Assembly: GCF_964033635.1 (NCBI RefSeq)
Contig: NZ_OZ035533.1
Coordinates: forward strand, 3,534,001 to 3,598,000
DNA: 64,000 nt
Reading direction: 5' to 3'
From: Chitinophaga sp. MM2321
GTDB lineage: Bacteria > Bacteroidota > Bacteroidia > Chitinophagales > Chitinophagaceae
Made by a program: the position numbers and the translations under genes. Positions within the stretch are counted from its first letter, which is position 1; each line of letters begins with the position of its first letter. Below the pieces are notes generated by a model that was not told where the DNA came from, ran no database searches, and worked only from the letters and a program-made list of their open reading frames with translations. Of the stretch, positions 13,999 to 37,363 are shown one piece after another.

Positions 13999-16900
13999 TT
14001 ATTTCAGTAACTGGATCCAACCTTTATATGCTTTGGCGCCTTCTGGTATTTTTAGTTTCAATACATAGTAGTAAGTACCACCACCCAAGCCGTTACCATC
14101 CCAATTGTTATTATAGTTGCCGGAATAATACACTTCATTACCCCAGCGATTAAATATGGATAGCGAGCTACCGGGATATTTGTAGAGATCCGGTATTACA
14201 AAACGGTCATTTATACCATCATTATTAGGTGTAATGGCATTTGGTATAAAGAATCCATCCTCAGTAACCGTAATTCTTACGATAGCTTCATTTGAAATAT
14301 TACCTGCAAGGTCTTTCACCTGATAAGCAAATACATCTACCCCTTTGAATCCAGCATCTGGCATATATATTATCTTACCATCCGCATCTATTCTTAAGGT
14401 GCCTCTGGCTGGCCGGGTTGTAATTATTATGTCGGCAAAGCCGGTCAATCCCGTATCATTATCCAGTACACTCACCACGACTTCCCTTCCTGGCAAGGTT
14501 TGCGCTGTATCATTCACAGCGCCCGGCAATGGCTTTACTGTAACGGTAACAGTGGCCGGATTTGACACGTCATTGCGAGTATTACGGATGGTATAACTGA
14601 AGATATCTGTGCCGATGAAAGCAGTGACAGGCGAATAGGTTACGGTGCCGTTAGCATTTATACTAATTGTGCCTTTAGATGGCTGACTCACGATGATGAC
14701 AGAGGAGAGGTCAAGCAAACCGCCGGTTTGAACATCGTTGGCAATGAGATTAATCAGCACCGGAATATTTACAAATGTCGTTGCCACATCATTATTAGCC
14801 ACCGGAGGTTGTTGGTTATTACATTTATTAACGGTAATGTTTATCACCTTGCTGCTGCTACATCCACTCATGTTCGTTACGGTGTAAGTGATTGTTGCAT
14901 TACCAGCTGTTACACCTGTTACAACTCCAGCAGCATCTACGCTGGCCACAGCCGCATCACTGCTGCTCCATACACCGCCCGTAGTAGTGGAACTCAATGT
15001 TGTGGTTCCGTCTACGCAAACAGTACCTGTACCTGTAATGGCTGCCACAACTGGCAGACCGTTTACGGTGATAGTCATGATCTGAGAAGCCTTACAGCCA
15101 TTCACATTCGTTACCGTATAAGTTATTGTTGCGCTACCTGCTGTTACACCAGTCACAATACCGGAGGCATCTACGCTAGCCACAGCGGCATCACTGCTGC
15201 TCCATACACCACCGGTAGTAGTGGAACTCAATGTTGTGGTTCCATCTATACAAACAGTACCTGTACCTGTGATGGCAGCTACAACTGGCAGACCGCTTAC
15301 AGTGACATTCATGATCTGAGAAGCCTTACAACCGCTCGCATTGGTTACCGTATAAGTTATTGTTGCACTACCAGCTGTTACTCCTGTTACAATACCGGAG
15401 GCATCTACGCTGGCAACAGCTGCATCGCTGCTACTCCATACACCACCGGTAGTAGTAGAACTTAATGTAGTGGTTCCATCTATACAAACAGTACCTGTAC
15501 CTGTAATGGCTGCCACAACGGGCAGACTACTTACAGTGACATTCATGATCTGAGAAGCCTTACAGCCACTCACATTCGTTACCGTATAAGTGATTGTTGC
15601 GCTACCAGCTGTTACTCCTGTTACAATACCGGAGGCATCTACGCTGGCCACAGCCCCATCGCTGCTGCTCCATACACCACCGGTAGTAGTGGAACTTAAT
15701 GTAGTGGTTCCATCTATACAAACAGTACCTGTACCTGTGATGGCAGCCACAACTGGCAGACCATTTACGGTGACATTCATAACCTGCAAAGCCTTACAAC
15801 CACTCACATTGGTTACGGTATAAGTGATTGTTGCACTACCCACTGTCACACCTGTTACAACACCGGAGGCATCTACGCTGGCAATAGCCGCATCGCTGCT
15901 GCTCCATACACCACCGGTAGTAGTGGAACTTAATGTTGTAGTTTCATCGATACAAACATCACCTGTACCAGTAATGGCAGCTACAACTGGCAGACCGCTT
16001 ACGGTGACATTCATGATCTGAGAAGTCTTACAGCCACTCACATTCGTTACGGTATAAGTTATTGTTGCGCTACCTGCTGTTACTCCTGTTACAATACCGG
16101 AGGCATCTACGCTGGCCACAGCCCCATCGCTGCTGCTCCATACACCACCGGTAGTAGTGGAACTTAATGTAGTGGTTCCATCTATACAAACAGTACCTGT
16201 ACCTGTGATGGCAGCCACAACTGGCAGACCATTTACGGTGACATTCATAACCTGCAAAGCCTTACAACCACTCACATTGGTTACGGTATAAGTGATTGTT
16301 GCACTACCCACTGTCACACCTGTTACAACACCGGAGGCATCTACGCTGGCAATAGCCGCATCGCTGCTGCTCCATACACCACCGGTAGTAGTGGAACTTA
16401 ATGTTGTAGTTTCATCGATACAAACATCACCTGTACCAGTAATGGCAGCTACAACTGGCAGACCGCTTACGGTGACATTCATGATCTGAGAAGTCTTACA
16501 GCCACTCACATTCGTTACGGTATAAGTTATTGTTGCGCTACCTGCTGTTACTCCTGTTACAATACCGGAGGCATCTACGCTGGCAACAGCGGCATCGCTG
16601 CTACTCCATACACCACCGGTAGTAGTGGAACTTAATGTTGTAGTTTCATCTATACAAACATCACCTGTGCCTGTAATGGCTGCCACAACGGGCAGACTAC
16701 TTACAGTGACATTCATGATCTGAGAAGCCTTACAGCCACTCACATTCGTTACCGTATAAGTGATTGTTGCGCTACCTGCTGTTACTCCTGTTACAATACC
16801 GGAGGCATCTACGCTGGCAACAGCGGCATCGCTGCTACTCCATACACCACCGGTAGTAGTGGAACTTAATGTTGTAGTTTCATCTATACAAACATCACCT

Positions 16901-19900
16901 GTGCCTGTAATGGCAGCTACAACTGGCAGGCCATTTATAGTGATAGTCATGATCTGAGAAGCCTTACAACCGCTCGCATTCGTTACCGTATAAGTTATTG
17001 TTGCGCTACCTGCTGTTACACCTGTTACAATACCGGAGGCATCTACGCTGGCAACAGCGGCATCGCTGCTACTCCATACACCACCGGTAGTAGTGGAACT
17101 TAATGTTGTAGTTTCATCTATACAAACATCACCTGTGCCTGTAATGGCAGCTACAACTGGCAGGCCATTTACAGTGACATTCATGATCTGAGAAGCCTTA
17201 CAACCGCTCGCATTCGTTACGGTATAAGTGATTATTGCGCTACCAGCTGTTATACCTGTCACAACACCAGAGGCATCTACACTGGCCACAGCAGCATCAC
17301 TGCTGCTCCATACACCACCGGTAGTAGTGGAACTTAATGTTGTGGTTCCATCTATACAAACATCACCTGTACCTGTGATAGCTGCCACAACTGGCAGACC
17401 GTTTACGGTGACAGTCATGACCTGCGAAGCCTTACAACCGCTCGCATTCGTTACCGTATAAGTTATTGTTGCGCTACCAGCTGTTACACCTGTTACAACA
17501 CCGGAGGCATCTACGCTGGCAATAGCCGCATCGCTGCTACTCCATACACCACCCGTAGTAGTGGAACTTAATGTTGTAGTTTCATCTATACAAACATCAC
17601 CTGTACCAGTAATGGCAGCCACAACGGGCAGGCCATTTACAGTGATATTCATGATCTGAGAAGCCTCACAGCCACTCACATTCGTTACCGTATAAGTTAT
17701 TGTTGCGCTACCTGCTGTTACACCTGTTACAACACCAGCAACATCTACGCTAGCCACAGCCGCATCGCTGCTACTCCAAACACCACCGGTAGTAGTGGAA
17801 CTTAATGTTGTAGTTTCATCTATACAAACATCACCTGTACCAGTAATGGCAGCCACAACGGGCAGACCGTTTACAGTGACATTCATGATCTGCGAAGCCT
17901 TACAACCGCTCACATTCGTTACCGTATAAGTGATTGTTGCGCTACCCGCTGTTACTCCTGTTACAACACCGGAGGCATCTACGCTGGCAATAGCGGCATT
18001 GCTGCTACTCCAAACACCGCCCGTAGTAGTAGAACTTAATGTAGTGGTTCCATCTATACAAACAGTACCTGTTCCTGTAATGGCTGCCACAACTGGCAGA
18101 CCGTTTACGGTGACATTCATGACCTGCGAAGCCTTACAGCCACTCACATTGGTTACGGTATAAGTTATTGTTGCGCTACCTGCTGTTACTCCTGTTACAA
18201 TACCAGCAGCATCTACGCTGGCAACAGCCGCATCGCTGCTGCTCCATATACCACCCGTAGTAGTGGAACTTAATGTTGTAGTTTCATCTATACAAACAGT
18301 ACCTGTACCGGTAATGGCAGCTACAACGGGCAGACTACTTACCGTAACAGTGACGGTCTGACTATTGGAGCATCCTCCTCCATTCGTAATGGTGTAGGTT
18401 ATCGTAGCAGTACCGGTGGTTACACCAGTCACAACACCAGCAGCATCTATGCTCGCCACAGCCGCATCGCTGCTACTCCATACACCGCCGGTAGTAGTGG
18501 AACTTAATGTAGTGGTTCCATCTACGCAAACAGTACCTGTACCTGTAATGGCAGCCACAACTGGCAGACCATTTACAGTGACATTCATGACCTGCGAAGC
18601 CTTACAGCCACTCACATTCGTTACGGTATAAGTTATTGTTGCGCTACCGGTTGTTACACCTGTCACAACACCGGAGGCATCTACGCTGGCAACAGCCGCA
18701 TCGCTGCTACTCCATACACCACCGGTAGTAGTGGAACTCAATGTTGTGGTTCCGTCTACGCAAACAGTACCTGTACCGGTAATGGCTGCCACAACGGGCA
18801 GACCGTTTACGGTGACATTCATGACCTGCGAAGCCTCACAACCGCTCGCATTGGTTACCGTATAAGTTATTGTTGCGCTACCTGCTGTTACACCAGTTAC
18901 AACACCGGAGGCATCTACGCTAGCCACAGCTGCATTGCTGCTACTCCATACACCACCGGTAGTAGTGGAACTTAATGTTGTAGTTTCATCGATACAAACA
19001 GTACCTGTACCAGTAATGGCAGCCACAACGGGCAGACCGTTTACAGTGACATTCATGATCTGCGAAGCCTTACAACCGCTCACATTCGTTACGGTATAAG
19101 TTATTGTTGCGCTACCCGCTGTTACACCAGTCACAATACCGGAGGCATCTACGCTAGCCACAGCCGCATCGCTGCTGCTCCATACACCACCGGTAGTAGT
19201 GGAACTTAATGTTGTGGTTCCATCTATACAAACATCACCTGTACCGGTAATGGCTGCCACAACGGGCAGACTACTTACCGTAACAGTGACGGTCTGACTA
19301 TTGGAGCATCCTCCTCCATTCGTAATGGTGTAGGTTATCGTAGCAGTACCGATGGTTACACCTGTCACAACACCAGCAGCATCTATGCTCGCCACAGCCG
19401 CATCGCTGCTACTCCATACACCGCCGGTAGTAGTAGAACTCAATGTTGTATTGAAGCCAAGACACACTGCCGTAGTTCCTGTGATAGGACTCACCGGCAC
19501 TACTGTCTGTTTTATATTAATAGTATCGCTAACAGAACAGCCATCAGGGAAGCTGACCCTCACATAATATTTACCCGGACCGTTTGCTATCAGCTTGTCC
19601 TTAGTACTGTTGTCATTCCAGAGATATTGGGAAGAAGGTGATCCAAAAAAGCCCTGGGTATTCAATTCGTAAGGGAAAGCAGTGGAACATATTTCAACAT
19701 CATCTCCTAGTCCCTGAATGGGTGAGGAGCCATTATATGGCACAACTGTCCAGCCAATATTACCTCCCTGATCAGTACTATGTTGTTTGATAGAGAATGA
19801 CGCACCACCGGTACCTGTTATCCTCTGGAGGCGTATGTAGTCAAACTCTACTGAGCCAGCCGGTTTAGTAATTGTGGCATTCGTAGCATTACTGCTTTTG

Positions 19901-28968: not shown

Positions 28969-30138
28969 ATGGCAGGGCCCTCCATTTTATTTAATCAAAG
29001 AGGTATACAACAAGTGAAAAAAACGCGGCTATATACTTTAACACTCGTAGGGATAAGCATCGTTGTTTTGATGATCAGCCTGGCATCCACCCAATATCTT
29101 TACAATGCTGCCAGGGAAAAGTTGTGGAGTACCAAATTAGCATCCGGAGAGCGGGAAGCAAGGGAAATCGCTCACCTGCTGGAGCAGCAACTCAATAGCG
29201 GACTAACACAACAACAGGTGATCAATAACCTGCAGAGAAGCATCGAAAATACCGATGTCAAAAGTGATTTCATCTGCATGTATAACCAAAAGGGAATTGA
29301 ACTGTGCCATCCGAACCCCGCCCTTATCGGTCAAATCATCGGGGAAGAAAACTCAGCGATAAAAGAACTAAAAACCGGGGAAAGCAGCTCTTTCATTGCT
29401 GTTTTACAAGCAGGCGTAAAAAGAAATGGGCTGCGCACATTCTCCGGCAATTCTCAGAAAAGCTCCGAAATAGTAACAGTTTATCCGGTACCACAAACGG
29501 ATTGGATGGTAGCCTCCCACGCTAACTTAACGGTGTTACAGGAGCAGTTGTCTGATTTACACCTGCAGTTCCTGGTTGGTTTGCTGCTGAGTGCTATCGC
29601 CATCAGCCTTTGCTGTTATATGCTCATCCGGCTGATTTACAGAAAATACGAAGCTGATATTGACCACGAAATAAAGGAGTTAAATGATAAAGTGGTGGGA
29701 TTGCAAGCCTTAAATCTGCAATTAAACACCCAGCAGGAAAAGTTACAGCAGCTTCCACATCCGTTGATGGCCCCTGCTGCTGCATCTGATACTGAAATAG
29801 TAAAAAAGAGAGTGATCACCTATCATAAAGATGAACTGATAAAATTAGATACCCACGACATTGCCTATGTTTTTCTGGACAACGGACTTCCTTATTTCTA
29901 CACATTTGAAAATCGTCCCTTCAATAGTAATAATAGCCTGGATGAAATAATGAAATGGCTGGATAATACCAATTTCTATAGAGCAAACAGACAATTTATT
30001 ATTAATATCCGGGCCATACAGAGCATATTGCTGTATGGAAAAAATCAGCTGAAACTGATTATGAAACCGGCGCCAGATATGGATGTTATCATCAGCAAGA
30101 ACAAGGTAGCTGAATTTAAACAATGGCTGGATCAGTAA
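28969..30138 (+). CDS. membrane-bound Cache-LytTR one-component regulator
   Basis: The 389-residue protein has an N-terminal membrane helix (about 22-45, LYTLTLVGISIVVLMISLA) and an extracytoplasmic Cache-like domain at about 50-200 (DFICMYNQKGIELCHPNPALIGQ, TVYPVPQTDWMVASHANL). A second helix (FLVGLLLSAIAISLCCYMLI, about 205-225) and a coiled-coil linker rich in L and Q follow. The C-terminal LytTR DNA-binding domain spans about 280-388 (HDIAYVFLDNGLPYFY, FYRANRQFIINIRAI). It should sense a small ligand or redox state outside the membrane and bind DNA directly from the membrane, without phosphotransfer. It is divergent from the haem/P460 operon, which is a candidate target. The first 15 codons may be non-coding, since a later Val start is possible. 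Confidence 0.82.
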   Translation: MAGPSILFNQRGIQQVKKTRLYTLTLVGISIVVLMISLASTQYLYNAAREKLWSTKLASGEREAREIAHLLEQQLNSGLTQQQVINNLQRSIENTDVKSDFICMYNQKGIELCHPNPALIGQIIGEENSAIKELKTGESSSFIAVLQAGVKRNGLRTFSGNSQKSSEIVTVYPVPQTDWMVASHANLTVLQEQLSDLHLQFLVGLLLSAIAISLCCYMLIRLIYRKYEADIDHEIKELNDKVVGLQALNLQLNTQQEKLQQLPHPLMAPAAASDTEIVKKRVITYHKDELIKLDTHDIAYVFLDNGLPYFYTFENRPFNSNNSLDEIMKWLDNTNFYRANRQFIINIRAIQSILLYGKNQLKLIMKPAPDMDVIISKNKVAEFKQWLDQ

Positions 30139-30242
30139 AAGCGCGGGCTCCCGGAATTACTACCAGCTTCCCATAATTTGACAGGATTTTCTACACAGAC
30201 CAGTACTTCCGATTTATACAATATTCCATTTCTTCGACATTC

Positions 30243-30250
30243 TACCTTTG
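30243..30250 (+). promoter_or_regulatory. TACCTTTG -7 box abutting the AhpD-like start
   Basis: TACCTTTG matches the Bacteroidota -7 consensus TAnnTTTG and ends one base before the annotated ATG at 30252. A transcript from it would begin inside the first codons. Either the mRNA is effectively leaderless or translation begins at the ATG at 30324. Confidence 0.4.
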
Positions 30251-30251
30251 T

Positions 30252-31244
30252 ATGTTGAAAGAAGGAAATAAAACAGGAACTGCAGTATTCGTGAATGCCC
30301 CGTTAACTAACAAAATAAGTGGTATGCGACTTAAAAAAGTAGAAAAAGGAGATGGTTTTTTTCGTGCCTTATTGATCAGGTTTATCTCAACCGTATCGGG
30401 AATGCGCCTGCCTGACGCCGCGCGTATCGTTATGTATCATAGAGATTTTTATGGAAAGCCAATGACAACCTGGACGCAGGCGGCCATGCGAGGCGAAAGC
30501 AGTTGGTCTGTTGGTGAGCGGGAACTTTTCGCGGCTATGACGGCAAAATGGAATTCATGCCCGTTTTGCATAGACGCGCACGGTGCTATTGCGTCATTGG
30601 CTTTGAATAAAACAATGGTAGCGGCATCACTTGCGGATTTTCGCCAGGCGAACCTACCTTCTAAATTATATGCCATCCTGGAGGTCCTGGAAATACTCAC
30701 CAAAACACCAGATGAACTGACTAAGGAACAAGTGGCTACGGTACTTCAAAACGGAATATCCGCACGGGAACTGGAAGATGCAATGGCAATTGTCGCCCTG
30801 TTCGGCATTACTGTTCGCTGCGCGAATACTTTCAATTTTGAGATGTTGGATAATGCTGAATTATTCCAGGCAGCCAAGCGAATGCTGACACAGGGTTATG
30901 TTTTCGGCAAGGGCAAGATGAAAGGTCTCCCGGATCACAGGACCTTGGCCGAAGAACTGCGCAAACGCGTGCTTGAAGGACCTGGATTAACAAATACTGA
31001 ATTTCGACAGGCATTTGCGAAACGAGCAACTGACGGCCCCGCTCTATCTGATCCAGATTATGACAAGCTGGCGCTACAAATTGGGCAATGTTCTTACAAG
31101 GTTACAGATGAACAGGTAGTAAAAGTAGTCCGGAAATCCGGAAGCGAAAAAGCCGCCTTTGAATTGATGACGGCAGCTGCTGTTAATTCGGGGCTTTATC
31201 GCTGGCAGCGGGGGCTTAGCTTATTAAAGGAAGTAGAAAAATAA
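30252..31244 (+). CDS. AhpD/carboxymuconolactone decarboxylase-like protein
   Basis: The 330-residue frame contains an AhpD-type core at about 85-175. ERELFAAMTAKWNSCPFCIDAHG carries the CxxC pair (C103, C106) and His110, and NTFNFEMLDNAELFQAAKRM follows. Such proteins act as alkylhydroperoxidase or thiol-disulfide reductases using the Cys pair. The C-terminal about 100 residues (LRKRVLEGPGLTNTEFRQAF and following) are helical and unassigned. The upstream -7 box abuts the ATG used here; the alternative start at 30324 (MRLKKVEKG) would remove 24 residues outside the domain. It lies 113 bp after the Cache-LytTR gene on the same strand, and both relate loosely to redox sensing. Confidence 0.82.
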   Translation: MLKEGNKTGTAVFVNAPLTNKISGMRLKKVEKGDGFFRALLIRFISTVSGMRLPDAARIVMYHRDFYGKPMTTWTQAAMRGESSWSVGERELFAAMTAKWNSCPFCIDAHGAIASLALNKTMVAASLADFRQANLPSKLYAILEVLEILTKTPDELTKEQVATVLQNGISARELEDAMAIVALFGITVRCANTFNFEMLDNAELFQAAKRMLTQGYVFGKGKMKGLPDHRTLAEELRKRVLEGPGLTNTEFRQAFAKRATDGPALSDPDYDKLALQIGQCSYKVTDEQVVKVVRKSGSEKAAFELMTAAAVNSGLYRWQRGLSLLKEVEK

Positions 31245-31361
31245 AACTATCTGATAATTAATTATTAATAGAAGATTATATAACCCCTTTTCGCATCAAA
31301 CAAAACTTCCTTTTTGTAGTTTTTCTTCGAAAAAGCAGCAAACAAATTAATCGCTAAGATC

Positions 31362-31559
31362 ATGGAGAAATTTTGTATCTCTCCGAAGATCCGAAAACGC
31401 TTGCTAAATCAGTGCAGATCGGCACAAAATATATTTGGCTATAACTTCGAAGTATATCTGGTTTATATCCTTGCGAAGCGGAAAGGCTTATCAATGGAAA
31501 TGCTGCGACTCCTGAAAAACGGAAAGCACTCGGTAGTTGCCTTACAGATTAAGATGTAG
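31362..31559 (+). CDS. small hypothetical protein (65 residues)
   Basis: An ATG-started frame encodes a basic peptide (MEKFCISPKIRKRLLNQCRS, ending LLKNGKHSVVALQIKM) with no recognised domain. It sits alone between the AhpD-like gene and the convergent Fic gene, ending 10 bp before the Fic stop. A T-rich stretch at 31309-31328 could hold a promoter. Length and composition are compatible with a real small gene or with chance; there is no homology I recognise. Confidence 0.35.
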   Translation: MEKFCISPKIRKRLLNQCRSAQNIFGYNFEVYLVYILAKRKGLSMEMLRLLKNGKHSVVALQIKM

Positions 31560-31569
31560 CTTCTTTTCG

Positions 31570-33147
31570 CTATTTAGTTTCTGGTAATTTAGCTACCATC
31601 TTGCCATGTAACTGCTCGTTAACTAAATAGCCAATAAAGGAGGCAAACGAAGTTATATCCTGTCCTACGCTTGCCTGCTCTAATGCCTGCATGTATTCAG
31701 TTCTTCTTTCCACAGGAATAACAGTCCACGGATATCCACCTGAAGCCAACATTGCATTCATTAGAAAACGTCCTATTCTTCCGTTGCCATCCATGTACGG
31801 GTGAATAAAAACAAAAATGAAATGACCCAATACCGCTCTAACCGATGCCGCTGGTTCTTCTTCCAATAATTCAAATAGTATGGGCATGGCATCCCTCATA
31901 GCATCAACATTCAAAGGAACGTGTTTGGAGTTGCCGATATGTACCTGATGATTGCGATACCCGGCAAGGTCTGCGGCCTTTAATAGTCCGGCAGCAACAC
32001 TTGGGTCGAAGAGCTGTCTGTACCATTTTGAGTGATCTTTATCCACCTGCTTTCCCGAATTAGCTCCTTTCAATATGGCTGTGATGGTTTCTTTCACCTG
32101 CAAAAAGGCTTGGAAGTAGCCTCTTGCCGCCATTGCATCCCTTTGTTTTCGATCTTCTTCGTTTCCTTTGCTATTCCACTTGCCACTACTTACCCTTTCG
32201 ATCAGTTCAGGTGTCACTCTATATCGCTCAATAGAAAGTGAGTGATAAGCATCAGTTACATAAATATCGTCAACGTCCTTTAAATAGGCTTGTGAATCAT
32301 CGGGTATGCCGGGCGCTTGGGGAAAGTTGGCAATAATAATCTCACGCATTTGCTGCCACATGAGCCTGATTCGATTTGCATAAGGAGAACGTTCACGGGA
32401 GGAAAGGTTCAGGTTCAGTTTGGCTTCAAAAGGATCTTCTTCCCGTATATCATAATCGGCCTGCTTAACAGTATCAACAATCTGGTCAGCTATTTTATCC
32501 CTGTTTATATTTCTAAAAGCACCTGCTAATCTGCCGGCAAATGTTGTATGCCCCTTTTCTAAAAGAATAGGCAATACTTCTGAAGCATCTCTTATCAATG
32601 CAAGGGCTGTGCGGGCATCTATGGCATTTCTTGTATAAATACCCGGTGAGCTATAAACCAAAGCAGCAGGCAGACTGTATATCCTCATTCCATCCAATAC
32701 GACGGTTTGATCCGCAGGTGGAATACTGGTCTTTAAATTGAATAAGGAAGTATTATGCGGCAAGGGTGTAGGATTATTATTTCCTTGCGGTGAACGTACC
32801 ATCAGTTGCTGTGGCACTGTGCTGTTTCCTGCATGGATGAGAAGTGACTGATCTGCCGACAAACACCATTCATTACCAAACTTATAGTTTAGGAACTTCA
32901 CAACGAAGTCCCAATAGGAACTATACCAAGACGTAGTTTCGCCTTCCTTTTCCGCGGGGTCTGTAGGTATGTACCAACCCTTTGTAACTTCACGGATAAA
33001 GCCATTTTTAAGTAATAATTCCCTGTATTTCCGATTGGGAATTTCATCGGTATGAATACCGACAGCTCCTTTATCCTGCAACTCCTGCAGGAATTTCAGG
33101 GATTCAACTAATCTTTCCCGGGGTGTCGCCATAATAAAACCTTGCAT
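31570..33147 (-). CDS. Fic-domain AMP-transferase-like protein with AbiEi-like N-terminus
   Basis: The 525-residue protein has a Fic motif HPYMDGNGRIGRF at about 446-458, containing the catalytic His and the anion-binding loop. A candidate inhibitory-helix motif SLSIER lies at about 298-303, close to the [ST]xxxE[GN] consensus but with Arg in the last position. Fic enzymes usually transfer AMP to hydroxyl groups of target proteins. The N-terminal about 220 residues (winged-helix-like VGIHTDEIPNRKYRELLLKNGFIREVTKGWYIP, then LLIHAGNSTVPQQLMV) resemble AbiEi-type antitoxin/transcription-factor proteins. The whole would combine a DNA-binding-like module with a Fic toxin. The gene is preceded by the 24-bp-pitch box array. 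Start at 33147 or 33132 (MATPRERL) cannot be decided. Confidence 0.85.
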   Translation of the reverse strand: MQGFIMATPRERLVESLKFLQELQDKGAVGIHTDEIPNRKYRELLLKNGFIREVTKGWYIPTDPAEKEGETTSWYSSYWDFVVKFLNYKFGNEWCLSADQSLLIHAGNSTVPQQLMVRSPQGNNNPTPLPHNTSLFNLKTSIPPADQTVVLDGMRIYSLPAALVYSSPGIYTRNAIDARTALALIRDASEVLPILLEKGHTTFAGRLAGAFRNINRDKIADQIVDTVKQADYDIREEDPFEAKLNLNLSSRERSPYANRIRLMWQQMREIIIANFPQAPGIPDDSQAYLKDVDDIYVTDAYHSLSIERYRVTPELIERVSSGKWNSKGNEEDRKQRDAMAARGYFQAFLQVKETITAILKGANSGKQVDKDHSKWYRQLFDPSVAAGLLKAADLAGYRNHQVHIGNSKHVPLNVDAMRDAMPILFELLEEEPAASVRAVLGHFIFVFIHPYMDGNGRIGRFLMNAMLASGGYPWTVIPVERRTEYMQALEQASVGQDITSFASFIGYLVNEQLHGKMVAKLPETK

Positions 33148-33176
33148 TTGTATGGCAGGCTATGCCGTCCATTATT

Positions 33177-33296
33177 TATTAAACATGGGTATGCAGTTAC
33201 TATTAAATTGTGCCGTCCCCATACTATTAAACAAAGATGCGACAAATTTATTAAATCATGTCGTGCTATTTCTATTGAATACTGATCATATATCCT
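33177..33296. repeat. five boxes TATTRAA at exact 24-bp pitch upstream of the Fic gene
   Basis: TATTAAA begins at 33177, 33201, 33225 and 33249, and TATTGAA at 33273. The pitch is exactly 24 bp in all four intervals. Positions 8 (Y), 12 (G, five of five) and 24 (Y) of the unit are also constrained; the remaining bases vary. Read on the minus strand, each unit has a CGRCAY-like word followed by TTTAATA. The array ends 30 bp before the Fic start codon. It is not a CRISPR (no long identical repeat) and shows no coding logic. Iterated operator sites or a degenerate minisatellite are the two readings. Confidence 0.8.
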
Positions 33297-33348
33297 TTCA
33301 TTGCCATATAAATACAATGCCGCACTTAATTTTAAAACGCTGCCATCG

Positions 33349-33495
33349 TCACCAAGTCCCCCTCCTTTTACCATTGGCTTTACGGATTTGCTGCAGCATT
33401 TTCCTGACAGTGCGTTCACTCCTACCGGTAATATTCTGGATGTCTTTTGCATAAATCACTATGCGATTAGGTACTAATATGTGCAAATTCGGCAT
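33349..33495 (-). CDS. truncated small HTH DNA-binding protein
   Basis: A 48-codon frame (ATG at 33495, TGA at 33349) reads MPNLHILVPNRIVIYAKDIQ, then NITGRSERTVRKMLQQIRKA and NGKRRGTW. This fits a small Bacteroidota HTH family in which the N-terminal helix-turn-helix (YAKDIxxITGRSxRTxxxxLxxIR) is normally followed by a second helical part ending near 75-90 residues. Here the protein stops right after the HTH, so it is probably truncated, though the HTH itself is intact. It is divergent from the hypothetical gene at 33639, 143 bp away. A decayed paralogue is at 45589-45774. Too short for ordinary gene callers. Confidence 0.6.
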   Translation of the reverse strand: MPNLHILVPNRIVIYAKDIQNITGRSERTVRKMLQQIRKANGKRRGTW

Positions 33496-33589
33496 AATCG
33501 GAATGGAAATTTTGCAGGGTTAAAATGCCGGCTTAGTTTGGTGTGGTTAAATGCAAATTTACAACATCCTGCGCAGATGTAAGCCTAAC

Positions 33590-33617
33590 GGGCCTGGCTA
33601 TGTGAAAGCCCTTTTTT
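33590..33617 (+). promoter_or_regulatory. short hairpin with T-run in the leader of the 33639 gene
   Basis: GGGC at 33590-33593 pairs with GCCC at 33608-33611, and six T follow. It lies 22 bp before the ATG of the conserved hypothetical gene. The stem is only 4 bp, so attenuation is a guess. Confidence 0.3.
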
Positions 33618-33638
33618 ATTATCTAAAATTATTTTCCA

Positions 33639-34406
33639 ATGGCAAAACAAAACGGAATAATTCCCTTGGAAGGAACTATTGGCAATATCACTTTTTATAA
33701 AACAAAGGACGGTAACCTCGCCCGTGAGAAAGGAGGTGTTGATGCCAACCGCATCGCGACAGATCCGGCGTTTATACGTACCCGTGAAAATGGTGCAGAG
33801 TTTGGCCGTGCCGGTAAGGCAGGGAAAGTACTGCGGACAGCCTTCCGGGCAATGCTGTTAAACGTCCGGGATGGTCGCATGACACCACGGCTGGTTCGTG
33901 AGATGGTGAAGGTAATCAAGGCGGATGTCACGAATCTGAGAGGGCAACGCAACATTATCGATGGTGAGGCGGAATTGCTGAATGGGTTTGAGTTCAATGG
34001 TGATGCACCTTTAGGTGGTTCCCTTTATGCACCTTTCACGGCTACCATTGATCGCGCTGCCGGCATGCTTACGGTAGACATTCCAGCTTTCATTCCTGCT
34101 AATATGGTGGCAGCACCGGATGGAGCCACGCATTTTAAAATTGTGGCTGCTGGCGCTGAGATAGATTTCGAAGCGGAAACGTTTATCAATGGTAATGCTG
34201 CGACTCCTGAAACGGCTACTAATGCGGCGACCGTCGATGTGGCAAGTCTGGCGATAAATGTCATGGCAAACAGTACAAAACCATTGTTCCTGGCTTTGGG
34301 CATCGTGTTTTACCAACAAGTAAACGATGTACTGTATAACATCAAGAACGGCGCTTACAATGCACTGGCGTTGGTTGCTGTTTCAGGCACTGCACCGACG
34401 CCATAA
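33639..34406 (+). CDS. conserved Bacteroidota hypothetical protein of a repeated cassette
   Basis: The 255-residue protein begins MAKQNGIIPLEGTIGNITFY and KTKDGNLAREKGGVDANRI, a start shared by a widespread Bacteroidota family of unknown function. It continues with basic helical sequence (RTRENGAEFGRAGKAGKVLR) at about 55-120. The C-terminal half is a beta-rich, Ala- and Asn-rich domain (IDRAAGMLTVDIPAFIP, LGIVFYQQVNDVLYNI). There is no signal peptide or membrane helix. The gene is monocistronic, divergent from a small HTH gene, and followed by a very strong terminator. The combination recurs in decayed form at 45.6-46.7 kb, which suggests a mobile or duplicated cassette. I do not know its function. 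Confidence 0.8.
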   Translation: MAKQNGIIPLEGTIGNITFYKTKDGNLAREKGGVDANRIATDPAFIRTRENGAEFGRAGKAGKVLRTAFRAMLLNVRDGRMTPRLVREMVKVIKADVTNLRGQRNIIDGEAELLNGFEFNGDAPLGGSLYAPFTATIDRAAGMLTVDIPAFIPANMVAAPDGATHFKIVAAGAEIDFEAETFINGNAATPETATNAATVDVASLAINVMANSTKPLFLALGIVFYQQVNDVLYNIKNGAYNALALVAVSGTAPTP

Positions 34407-34489
34407 TACTTCTGTGGCATTCAAAGACGGCAGTAGATAATAACAGCGGTTCATCCGCTACGAAATAGTTCTTCTGGCCACAGGTATGG

Positions 34490-34521
34490 TTACCTTACGG
34501 ATTGTTTGGTGTAATGGGTTC
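34490..34521. repeat. 32-bp identical repeat, copy 1 (copy 2 at 46660-46691)
   Basis: The shared stretch starts TTACCTTACGGATTGTTTGG and runs to the first bases of the terminator stem; similarity then continues at lower identity for about 20 bp. It marks the 3' boundary of the 33.3-34.5 kb cassette. Confidence 0.85.
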
Positions 34522-34549
34522 CTGCGAATCGCAGGAGCCCATTACTTTT
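34511..34549 (+). terminator. 16-bp-stem intrinsic terminator of the 33639 gene
   Basis: GTAATGGGTTCCTGCG (34511-34526) pairs with CGCAGGAGCCCATTAC (34530-34545) throughout, with one G-U wobble, around an AAT loop, followed by TTTT. It is about 105 bp after the stop codon. A corrupted copy lies at 46681-46711. Confidence 0.92.
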
Positions 34550-34712
34550 GATACTGAAGTTTCTCTTGAACCAGGATTGAATATCACCAGGATTCATTCT
34601 CTGTATTTATAAATGACCATGCAAAGAAAGCATTCTTCTATTAAAAAACATGCAAAGTCCATCCATCCTTCTGGCCTCAAATAAAATTGAAAGGGAAGCA
34701 TTTAACTACCTG

Positions 34713-35630
34713 TTATTTTTTTTCCATCAATGGCATAGCCTGGGGCTGAATAATCACAAAACCAACCAACGTATATTCCTGCTTAATGGCTTTTCGTACC
34801 CTTTCTATTGCATCAGTAATTCCTTCAGTATCGAGATCTGCTTTAAAATAAACCATAAGCATGAGTACAATTTCATCAGGCGACTCATAAGTTGATAGTA
34901 TATTGCCTACCTTAATTACTGCCGGATCCCTCTCGGTCAGTTCCTTTATTTTTCGTTGCGTTTCGGGTGCTATGCCTTCACCCATCAGTAAGCTGCGGCT
35001 TTCACGCGCCAGTATCAATGAAGCAAAAACCAACAGTAATCCAACTAAAATGGAAGCCACGCCATCCAGAAAAGGCATATTAAAAGCATGGTTAATCAGC
35101 ATTAAAACGAAAACAGTGATCAATCCAAGTACTGCTGCTCCGTCTTCAAACAATACCAAAAAACTTGAAGGGTCTTTACTATTAATGACCGCTTTCCAAA
35201 AACCTGTGCTGCCCCTTGTCTTATTAAATTCCCTGATAGCAATAACGAACGAGCCCCCATCAAAAATAAAAGAAAAGCCAAGGACAATGTAATTCAGCAT
35301 GGGATCTATCAAAGGCTCCACTTTTTGGATATGTATAATGCCCTGGTAAATTGATAGCCCACCGCCCAATCCAAAAATAAGTATGGAAACAATGAACGAC
35401 CAGAAATACAATTCTTTACCATAGCCAAAAGGTCTATACTTATCCGGCGGTCTGGCACTTCTCTTTAAACCATATAAAAGCAAAATCTGGTTGATAGTAT
35501 CCACCAAAGAGTGGATACCTTCGGAAATCATTGATGAGCTATTAGTGCGCGCACCGGCAATAAATTTTACAATTGCTATCAGTACGTCTGCAACCAGGGC
35601 GCTGTAAATAGATGCATGATTTTTGGTCAT
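34713..35630 (-). CDS. cation diffusion facilitator (CDF) family transporter
   Basis: The 305-residue protein has about six membrane helices in its first 215 residues and a cytoplasmic C-terminal domain (VGNILSTYESPDEIVLMLMVYF). Metal-site residues are seen in TM2 (GIHSLVDTINQ, HxxxD) and TM5 (LFEDGAAVLG and LDGVASILVG with paired Asp). The product should export Zn2+, Fe2+, Mn2+ or similar divalent metals by proton antiport. Its ATG overlaps the stop of a 51-codon antiporter remnant (ATGA arrangement), so it may depend on that upstream frame for translation. The preceding 33 kb cassette ends over 150 bp from its stop. Confidence 0.9.
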   Translation of the reverse strand: MTKNHASIYSALVADVLIAIVKFIAGARTNSSSMISEGIHSLVDTINQILLLYGLKRSARPPDKYRPFGYGKELYFWSFIVSILIFGLGGGLSIYQGIIHIQKVEPLIDPMLNYIVLGFSFIFDGGSFVIAIREFNKTRGSTGFWKAVINSKDPSSFLVLFEDGAAVLGLITVFVLMLINHAFNMPFLDGVASILVGLLLVFASLILARESRSLLMGEGIAPETQRKIKELTERDPAVIKVGNILSTYESPDEIVLMLMVYFKADLDTEGITDAIERVRKAIKQEYTLVGFVIIQPQAMPLMEKK

Positions 35631-35782
35631 ATAGTTGATATCTTCTCAAAGATTATTACGGAAACCACCACCGAAATGGTAACAACGCCAGTAGTTCCGG
35701 GAAGTTTTATAAAGCGTTCATTCAGGTAAGAAAATATCGCGCTAATGCAAAAAAGTATGGTGAGGATGGTTAAAAGATCCAT
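35627..35782 (-). pseudogene. N-terminal fragment of a CPA1-type Na+/H+ antiporter
   Basis: A 51-codon frame reads MDLLTILTILFCISAIFSYL then NERFIKLPGTTGVVTISVVV. This is the first helix and loop of CPA1/NhaP-type sodium-proton antiporters (FxYxNxRFIKLPxTxG), which are normally 400 residues or more. The frame ends at TGA overlapping the ATG of the CDF gene. The rest of the antiporter is absent, so a deletion has fused the antiporter start region directly to the CDF gene. It probably survives as a leader supplying promoter and translational coupling. Too short for ordinary gene callers. Confidence 0.7.
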
Positions 35783-35887
35783 GTCAGATTCTTATTTTTG
35801 AGATGCCGGCAACATTGCTAATCGAATTCCCAAACACCTTGATTTGAGAGACTTCCATGATTCTTAGTATTAATTTGAACGAAAATT

Positions 35888-37363
35888 TTATTCCGAATTA
35901 TTTTTTTGTTGTTTTGAAGATTCTTTAGGAACTGTTATCCATATTGATATTATTGCTACAACAACCATAAAAACATTAAAAAGCAGTCCTAGGCCTGCTG
36001 CATATCTTACTGCTATATTATCAGTTCTTCCCATGAAGATATCTGCCATTGGGGAAACTCCTTTCAGAGTGCTTAACCCGTAAAAAATAGCCGCAGAAAT
36101 GGCAACGCCAAAGGCAGCACCCAGGGATGATGCCATCTTATATATGCCTGATGCTGATCCGGCCATATTTGCAGGAACGTTACTTAGGGCTGCGTCGGTA
36201 GAAGGTGTAGCATAAAAACCAAGTCCTACACCAAACAACGTAAACCCAACAAATGCAACAATGATATATTCTTTAGTCAATAGAAAAGTAAAACTTGTAA
36301 GCAGGATCCCCATCCCTGTTATGTAACAGCCGAGCAACATCGGTTTTCTTGGCCCCATTTTTTGAAGCAATTTTTCGCCCACCCGTATGGTGCTAAGTAT
36401 GGCTACTAAATAACCAACAGTTATTAACCCCGACTGCAAAGAAGACAAGCCTGCCTCGGTTTGTACAAGCGCCAATGCAACAAGCAGAGTACCGGCAGCA
36501 CCGTTTAATAGAAAATTGGATAGCGTAGCTCCTGAAAATGTTTGGTTTTTAAAAAGCGATAAATCAACGAAGCCGTTTTCACTCTTGCTCTCTATCCGGA
36601 GAAAAACAATAATGGATATGATAAAAATGACGCCGCAAATTATAATGGCAGGGCTTAACCAGCCAAGGCCCGATCCTTGTCCAATTACAATGTTTATGGC
36701 CAGCATGGCGATAATGAATGCGATGAGTCCTGCCCAATCGAAGGCTTTTTTGCCTGTAGTCGTTGATTTGCTTTCCGGTGTTCCCCTGATTAATAAATAA
36801 CTTATAATAGCGACAAGAATCGATATAACGAAAATCCACCGCCAGCCAATGGTGGAGGCCACCAACCCACCAAATAAGGAACAGAAACCTGAACCGCCCC
36901 AGGAACCAATAGACCAAAAACTAAGTGCCCGCTGGCGTGCTTTACCATCATAGTAGGTTTTCATCAACGCCAATGTAGCAGGCATGATACAAGCTGCTGA
37001 AAGCCCCTGCAAGATGCGTCCGGCTAATAGAAAAAGAGCGGTACCAGAAGGTGAGATGACGATAAGAAGGGAACCAATAATACTAAGTAGCAAACCAATA
37101 TAAGTAATTTTCACCCTGCCTATCCGGTCTGCCAGTCCACCGGCTACAACAATAAAAATCCCGGAAAACAATGCCGTAATGCTCACAGCAAGATTGTTCA
37201 CACTGTGACTAATTTTTAGATCTGCACTCATTGCAGGTGCAATGTTTAATGTGGTTTGGGCAAAAAGCCAAAAGGTGATGACAGCTAAAACAATTCCAAG
37301 AATAAGTTTGTCCGTTCCACGGTAGTTTGATGTGACTGTCTTTGTTTGATTAGAAGCAATCAT
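35888..37363 (-). CDS. MFS drug:H+ antiporter, DHA2 (14-helix) type
   Basis: The 491-residue protein has about 14 hydrophobic helices. The MFS motif A region reads GGLADRIGRVKITYIG between helices 2 and 3, and LLAGRILQGLSAACIMPATLALM and LFGGLVASTIGWRWIFVISILVA match the EmrB/QacA group. It should export hydrophobic compounds or drugs by proton antiport across the inner membrane. No membrane-fusion or regulator gene is adjacent, so it probably acts alone. The 5' end is 53 bp from a YceI remnant on the same strand. Confidence 0.88.
   Translation of the reverse strand: MIASNQTKTVTSNYRGTDKLILGIVLAVITFWLFAQTTLNIAPAMSADLKISHSVNNLAVSITALFSGIFIVVAGGLADRIGRVKITYIGLLLSIIGSLLIVISPSGTALFLLAGRILQGLSAACIMPATLALMKTYYDGKARQRALSFWSIGSWGGSGFCSLFGGLVASTIGWRWIFVISILVAIISYLLIRGTPESKSTTTGKKAFDWAGLIAFIIAMLAINIVIGQGSGLGWLSPAIIICGVIFIISIIVFLRIESKSENGFVDLSLFKNQTFSGATLSNFLLNGAAGTLLVALALVQTEAGLSSLQSGLITVGYLVAILSTIRVGEKLLQKMGPRKPMLLGCYITGMGILLTSFTFLLTKEYIIVAFVGFTLFGVGLGFYATPSTDAALSNVPANMAGSASGIYKMASSLGAAFGVAISAAIFYGLSTLKGVSPMADIFMGRTDNIAVRYAAGLGLLFNVFMVVVAIISIWITVPKESSKQQKNNSE

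Follow-up and report, generated by a model that had tools for sequence, protein, structure and literature searches.

The fic locus and its array of 24-bp units

The stretch of DNA analyzed in this study (the window; 64,000 nucleotides, positions 3534001-3598000 of the single 6.78-Mb contig of Chitinophaga sp. MM2321, G000) carries on its minus strand a fic gene that is directly preceded by five 24-bp units, read on the Fic strand and together spanning 33160-33279. The original prediction had described five TATTRAA boxes at an exact 24-bp pitch, and a check of the sequence bore out every start position (33177, 33201, 33225, 33249, and 33273), with TATTAAA in four of the boxes and TATTGAA in one. 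The periodic array before the Fic gene is confirmed as real, and the window holds one copy of a general feature. The units, delimited by a chain of position weight matrix (PWM) matches, and the parts of the gene are as follows.

33256..33279, minus strand: unit 1, the first in the direction of Fic (PWM chain)
33232..33255, minus strand: unit 2, which holds a promoter-like box (PWM chain)
33208..33231, minus strand: unit 3 (PWM chain)
33184..33207, minus strand: unit 4, with the lowest PWM score of the five, 6.1 (PWM chain)
33160..33183, minus strand: unit 5, 27 bp before the conserved Fic start (PWM chain)
31570..33132, minus strand: Fic gene, 520 amino acids (aa) from the conserved ATG; AlphaFold2 (AF2) model with a predicted local distance difference test (pLDDT) value of 92.9
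32413..33132, minus strand: predicted AbiEi-like N-terminal region, residues 1-240 (structure comparison of the model)
32959-33132, minus strand: predicted winged helix, approximately residues 1-58 (structure comparison of the model)
31747..31965, minus strand: Pfam Fic domain, residues 390-462, with the HPYMDGNGRIGR motif

The array had been placed just before the gene, at a distance of 30 bp. Its place holds, but the distance does not: family members share the ATG at 33132 (MATP...) as start codon, not the one at 33147, and the gap between the array and Fic is therefore 27 bp. An imperfect 16-bp inverted repeat (33142-33157 and 33302-33317), possibly due to chance, surrounds the array. A scan of the window with Rfam returned no family at its threshold.

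At up to 2 mismatches the two-box 24-bp pattern gave 16 matches in the window vs. 5.8 expected from shuffles, and all 4 exact matches lay inside the array. A fuller two-unit motif matched the window four times in the array and once elsewhere at 2 mismatches, vs. 0.01 matches expected; in the whole genome it gave the 4 array matches and 4 other places at 2 mismatches, and none for the control. When the three-box pattern was run against the 6.78-Mb genome (up to 2 mismatches), 3 overlapping exact matches in the array and 1 match elsewhere with 2 mismatches were obtained, while the reversed pattern, used as a control on the same genome, also gave 2 matches.

Conservation of the array across the Fic family

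Relatives were chosen by the protein alone, as the best 80 of 556 confirmed Genome Taxonomy Database (GTDB) loci together with 6 viral contigs. Those with at least 150 bp upstream of the gene (n = 85; 79 genomic and 6 viral) were examined for periodicity at lags of 10-60 bp. The best upstream period was 24 bp in 65 loci, 48 bp in 12, 23 bp in 4, and another value in 4. Among the last group, L065 (47 bp) and L095 (32 bp) show a tie with 24 bp, L134 has 33 bp as the best and 24 bp as the second period, and L089 is best at a lag of 12 bp, yet two units 23 bp apart can be discerned by eye. The strong 33-bp period of L134 occurs besides two units at 24 bp. Fic homologs without periodic boxes had been named at the outset as evidence against the idea; the search for them returned a best period of 24, 48, or 23 bp in 81 of the 85 loci. 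As a control, a 24-bp-type period was found in 12 of 271 upstream regions of other genes from the same loci, and in 2 of 24 genes of other Fic kinds, neither with a strong score (the 24 genes come from 26 loci, L022-L047, nearly all of the window's own order).

We also analyzed seven extra plasmid loci from Alpha-, Beta-, and Gammaproteobacteria and Bacteroidota, hand-picked for diversity (7 of the 30 rows listed), using a shorter test segment of 48 bases (72 for the other loci) within the last 200 bp. Six were best at 23, 24, or 48 bp and one at 47 bp. The PWM chain beat all 200 shuffles in five of the seven, the exceptions being L141, which has a 23-bp array, and L146; plasmid locus L143 is close to L048, which belongs to the set used for PWM fitting. 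The 90 upstream regions described by the PWM are also those used to fit it, and loci with a chain score below 20 (L048, L086, L089, L094, L103, L127, and L136-L139) were excluded from the counts of orientation, spacing, folding, and promoters. Some loci are kin: L054-L060 and their relatives are copies of one conjugative element and L136-L139 are near copies, and 49 de-duplicated clusters were used where stated.

Results showed that members of this Fic family from both Bacteroidota and Proteobacteria are immediately preceded by such an array, on chromosomes, plasmids, and conjugative elements. In L136-L139, contigs from the viral collection with a 47% identical Fic, the pitch is 23 bp, not 24 bp. 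The phage collection gave 4 matching records, none covering more than 23% of the query. In L061, L064, L088, and L093 the array is kept although the Fic reading frame is broken.

The second finding named beforehand as contrary evidence was the occurrence of the array apart from Fic. When 294 sampled genomes of the family were searched with the three-box pattern, six had matches (the window genome, G215, G239, G196, G029, and G161); five of these are Fic loci, while in G161 the match is an 8-bp simple repeat. This repeat, TATTAAAC/TTTTAAAC in L010 and L012, mimics the three-box pattern.

Sequence and geometry of the unit

On the Fic strand the PWM describes the family unit as WWTA[AC]TA[AG]WWWTARYACRNCANNA, with 12 bits of information. 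The TATTRAA box is real but makes up only half of the 24-bp unit, the halves of the window unit being TATTRAA (plus strand) and RYACRNC (Fic strand). Box positions 8, 12, and 24, originally singled out as constrained, are indeed so (unit positions 24, 20, and 8), but family-wide the strongest positions of the unit are 17, 6, 7, 5, and 20.

The unit is asymmetric (best dyad correlation 0.37). Throughout 80 arrays, 286 of 296 sites are oriented with the gene and 10 opposite to it, and of 207 distances between adjacent sites 191 are exactly 24 bp (in the 49 clusters, 122 of 132). At the same time, neighboring units within the 49 clusters differ at about 7 of 24 positions. Substitutions pile up and length changes hardly occur, which suggests selection on the geometry. 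Most arrays have 3-6 copies and some up to 9 (2-9 by the PWM), and across the loci 0 to 127 bp separate the array from the start codon. The unit contains two conserved blocks whose information centers are 11.2 bp apart, about one helical turn, as expected for one protein reading one DNA face per unit. The description of the boxes as helically phased is correct for the fixed geometry but not for a single DNA face: as 24 bp corresponds to about 2.3 turns, neighboring sites lie on different faces of the helix.

The Fic protein and its N-terminal region

Class II Fic proteins comprise FICD and its kin and have an inhibitory motif, [S/T]xxxE[G/N], N-terminal to the Fic motif. In the window family the Fic motif HPYxDGNGR is invariant in 67 of 67 rows and agrees with the class II form HP(F/Y)xDGNGR. 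An inhibitory-type motif, S298-L-S-I-E302, is likewise invariant in 67 rows, and the window protein has R after the E, not G/N. Since VIA-align with the whole protein gave solely Fic entries among the 50 matches listed, the N-terminus was modeled alone. The best PDB matches of this model were Rv2827c and AbiEi, and the predicted N-terminus has the two-domain AbiEi fold with an N-terminal winged helix. The resemblance of the N-terminus to AbiEi antitoxins, proposed from the translation, thus holds for the structure but not for Pfam: among the 14 Pfam families that the 67 members match at E ≤ 1 there is no AbiEi profile. A search for the N-terminal region apart from Fic listed 120 of 274 matches, all of them short owing to the length limit of the search; several are named as partial Fic, and the remainder are hypothetical or unnamed, a result that speaks neither for nor against a free-standing domain. 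In the protein as modeled, an AbiEi-antitoxin-like winged-helix region is joined to a Fic domain of the FICD-like type.

In the window, fic is flanked by one gene with a CMD domain and another without a Pfam match. No gene for a DUF1814 nucleotidyltransferase toxin was found among these two, the neighbors at other loci having been clustered and not scanned for DUF1814.

Relatives within a conjugative element and neighboring genes

In G215, G239, G196, and G029 the array lies between a close Fic homolog and a large serine recombinase. G301 and G312, found via the Fic protein, have the same arrangement as G215. The order in L015, L051, and L052 is a serine recombinase, Fic in the opposite direction, the array, a second serine recombinase, and tRNA-Lys. 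The two recombinases of L051 are 66% identical to one another, and upstream of the first there are genes with the TraJ, TraM, and DUF4138 domains of conjugative transposons. L014 and L016 likewise contain a tRNA-Lys, and the search of L017 gave none; the reading frame of the second recombinase of L015 extends into the tRNA gene. When positions 29501-36500 of the window were compared with four such loci, only 31516-33333 aligned. Fic and the array are the sole part of the conjugative element seen in the window; neither recombinase and no tRNA was found anywhere in the window. Two stretches form the edges of the aligned part.

31516..31569, no strand assigned: about 54 bp past the 3′ end of Fic, aligning to the end of a serine recombinase gene in L015; an element remnant (L015 alignment)
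33280..33333, no strand assigned: the last stretch homologous to the element relatives, at the position where their second recombinase promoter would be expected (alignment)

Within the element the array adjoins the likely promoter of the second recombinase, for which reason Fic might restrain excision there too.

With the first relatives (G239, G215, G029, and G196, then G301 and G312), all of which have the order fic-array-recombinase, the array was considered as part of the serine recombinases of the element. This assignment was dropped in view of G306, which is without an adjoining recombinase yet has its own 24-bp array with another unit; its Fic is 62% identical to that of the window, and Gabija GajA/GajB genes lie alongside. 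It was because of G306 that relatives were collected by protein only. In L053 (5688-9777), a Fic gene preceded by a 24-bp array of its own stands in divergent orientation to gajA and gajB. A common neighbor family occurs near Fic in L066, L113, L118, L120, L121, and L122, with HipA domains in L121. Elsewhere in the window (14859-19449) we noted a 234-bp tandem repeat of approximately 19.6 copies with 88% matches.

A probable head-to-tail operator and alternative explanations

We consider it likely that the array is a head-to-tail operator bound by the N-terminus of Fic itself, resulting in autorepression; that the Fic protein binds the array is what we infer. Each unit would bind one Fic monomer through its winged helix, the monomer reading the two blocks about one helical turn apart. 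Monomers would be arranged head to tail every 24 bp, with mutual contacts fixing the pitch, and the bound row would cover the promoter or the transcription start, so that Fic would repress its own gene. Such autorepression would keep the potentially toxic, predicted AMP-transferase at a low level.

The -7 promoter box of Bacteroidota has the consensus TAnnTTTG, and one box of this kind lies within the array of the window.

33243..33250, minus strand: TAAATTTG, which fits the -7 box TAnnTTTG, inside unit 2; partly expected from the unit motif

In the Bacteroidota set, sorted by record titles (65 loci; 38 de-duplicated), 12 of the 65 loci have a box 13 bp ahead of the first unit vs. 0.0 expected from the motif, and 12 have an in-array box at phase 15 vs. 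0.1; at phase 6, the phase of the window, there are 31 boxes vs. 9.2. The corresponding values for the 38 de-duplicated loci are 7, 6, and 16 vs. 0.0, 0.06, and 5.7. Proteins bound side by side along the array would lie over the promoter.

Several points speak against such autorepression or limit the case for it. The divergence of the units tracks the winged helix no more than the Fic domain, any covariation of protein and unit could not be told from common descent, and the published AbiEi half-site resembles the unit no more closely than expected by chance. The negative co-operativity described for Rv2827c (PMC7319586) disfavors the assumed contacts between monomers. Many units lie downstream of the likely start, as would suit action at the RNA level.

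Control at the RNA level would mean that units in a transcribed 5′ leader are bound as RNA, either in translational autoregulation or as a type III-like antitoxin RNA, and we regard it as unlikely. It would suit an array that lies on the coding strand, directly upstream of the gene and in constant orientation, and where the box precedes the first unit by 13 bp, as in 12 of 65 Bacteroidota loci, transcription would take in nearly all units. Single arrays also fold better than their shuffles (L087, z = -4.9; L118, z = -4.1). However, no general RNA structure is apparent, the z values of folding for 20 of the 80 arrays having a mean of -0.79 (range -4.9 to 1.1). Moreover, 15 de-duplicated loci have an in-array box at phase 6 or 15. 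In 11 of them every such box has at least one whole unit upstream, in 3 (L085, L113, and L119) some boxes do, and in L098 none does; units upstream of a box would not be transcribed from it. In many cases a short gap separates the array from the gene (27 bp in the window), flexible RNA gives no reason for an exact pitch, and the predicted N-terminal fold is that of a DNA-binding antitoxin.

It is doubtful whether the array acts as a scaffold, too, on which DNA-ordered Fic monomers would be autoinhibited (or activated), with the repeat number setting a threshold. Loss or occupation of the array, e.g., by invading DNA or replication, would then switch AMPylation on, and the whole would constitute a toxin-antitoxin system with a DNA array as the antitoxin part.

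That the operator is read by an unlinked host factor and not by Fic seems quite improbable. In favor of such a factor, binding by Fic is a deduction and unit divergence follows the winged helix no better than the Fic domain. Yet related units accompany Fic across phyla, plasmids, and conjugative elements while its neighbors change, and one host factor common to all is therefore unlikely. A degenerate minisatellite or functionless mobile repeat is very improbable, even though tandem duplication yields an exact pitch at birth and some arrays are nearly perfect (Pseudoalteromonas plasmid L050): pitch and motif are conserved with diverged units in 49 clusters, there is as a rule no such array at the 24 genes of other Fic kinds, and the window's genome contains no second array. 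Of the two options left side by side by the original prediction, selected protein-binding sites are preferred over a minisatellite. A coding repeat, in which 24 bp would be eight codons of an eight-residue periodic peptide, is hardly credible, for although the frame on the recombinase side is open through the array in some relatives, e.g., in a 573-aa open reading frame of L051, there is no common frame (the best one in the unit register is open in 42 of 77 arrays) and that of L051 is interrupted by a TAG stop in L015.

If the array is indeed the operator of Fic itself, a widespread Fic family, which in one case lies beside Gabija genes and on which we found no study, would be tied to a precise regulatory design, with operator arrays built head to tail for a domain of the AbiEi type. 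The array may be used as a sequence mark of the Fic family, and the repeat number of 2-9 offers a natural series for array length vs. toxin dose.

Comparison with known systems

Among the open-access literature matches listed, titles and abstract openings contain no account of an array of this form before Fic genes. Counterparts of each single part are known; new, to our knowledge, are their combination and the family-wide fixed pitch. Class II Fic proteins differ from the window type, which has an AbiEi-like N-terminus. Type III toxin-antitoxin systems likewise have tandem repeats upstream of the toxin, but there the toxin is an endoribonuclease and here it is a Fic domain only. Type III repeat RNA is structured; the mean folding z value of the Fic arrays is the above -0.79.

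The closest parallels concern autoregulation. As described in PMC7319586, AbiEi represses its own promoter by binding as two monomers to a pair of 23-bp elements, and Rv2827c occupies four 23-bp elements, all no farther than 131 bp from its start, in a negatively co-operative manner. These autoregulators of type IV AbiE systems (PMC7319586, PMC3985639) resemble the window protein in the predicted N-terminal fold, a winged helix plus a second domain, and their 23-bp elements near the own start codon are similar in size and position to the Fic array. In contrast, the N-terminus is here fused to a Fic domain and has no Pfam AbiEi match, no DUF1814 partner was seen in the two window flanks tested, and the AbiEi operator as published consists of inverted pairs of 23-bp elements, whereas the Fic array runs head to tail at a 24-bp pitch.

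CccR of Yersinia pseudotuberculosis, according to PMC9755527, combines Fic and a DNA-binding domain in one protein and represses its own promoter; a Fic toxin is thus able to be its own repressor. It is reported to have a C-terminal helix-turn-helix and one 46-nt site with inverted repeats, unlike the N-terminal AbiEi-like region and the direct-repeat array described here. BldC-type regulators share the asymmetric, head-to-tail binding to varying numbers of direct repeats (PMC5859096), and such a binding mode is therefore real, although BldC is described there as a 68-residue MerR-like protein of unrelated fold that binds 9-bp repeats and has no toxin.
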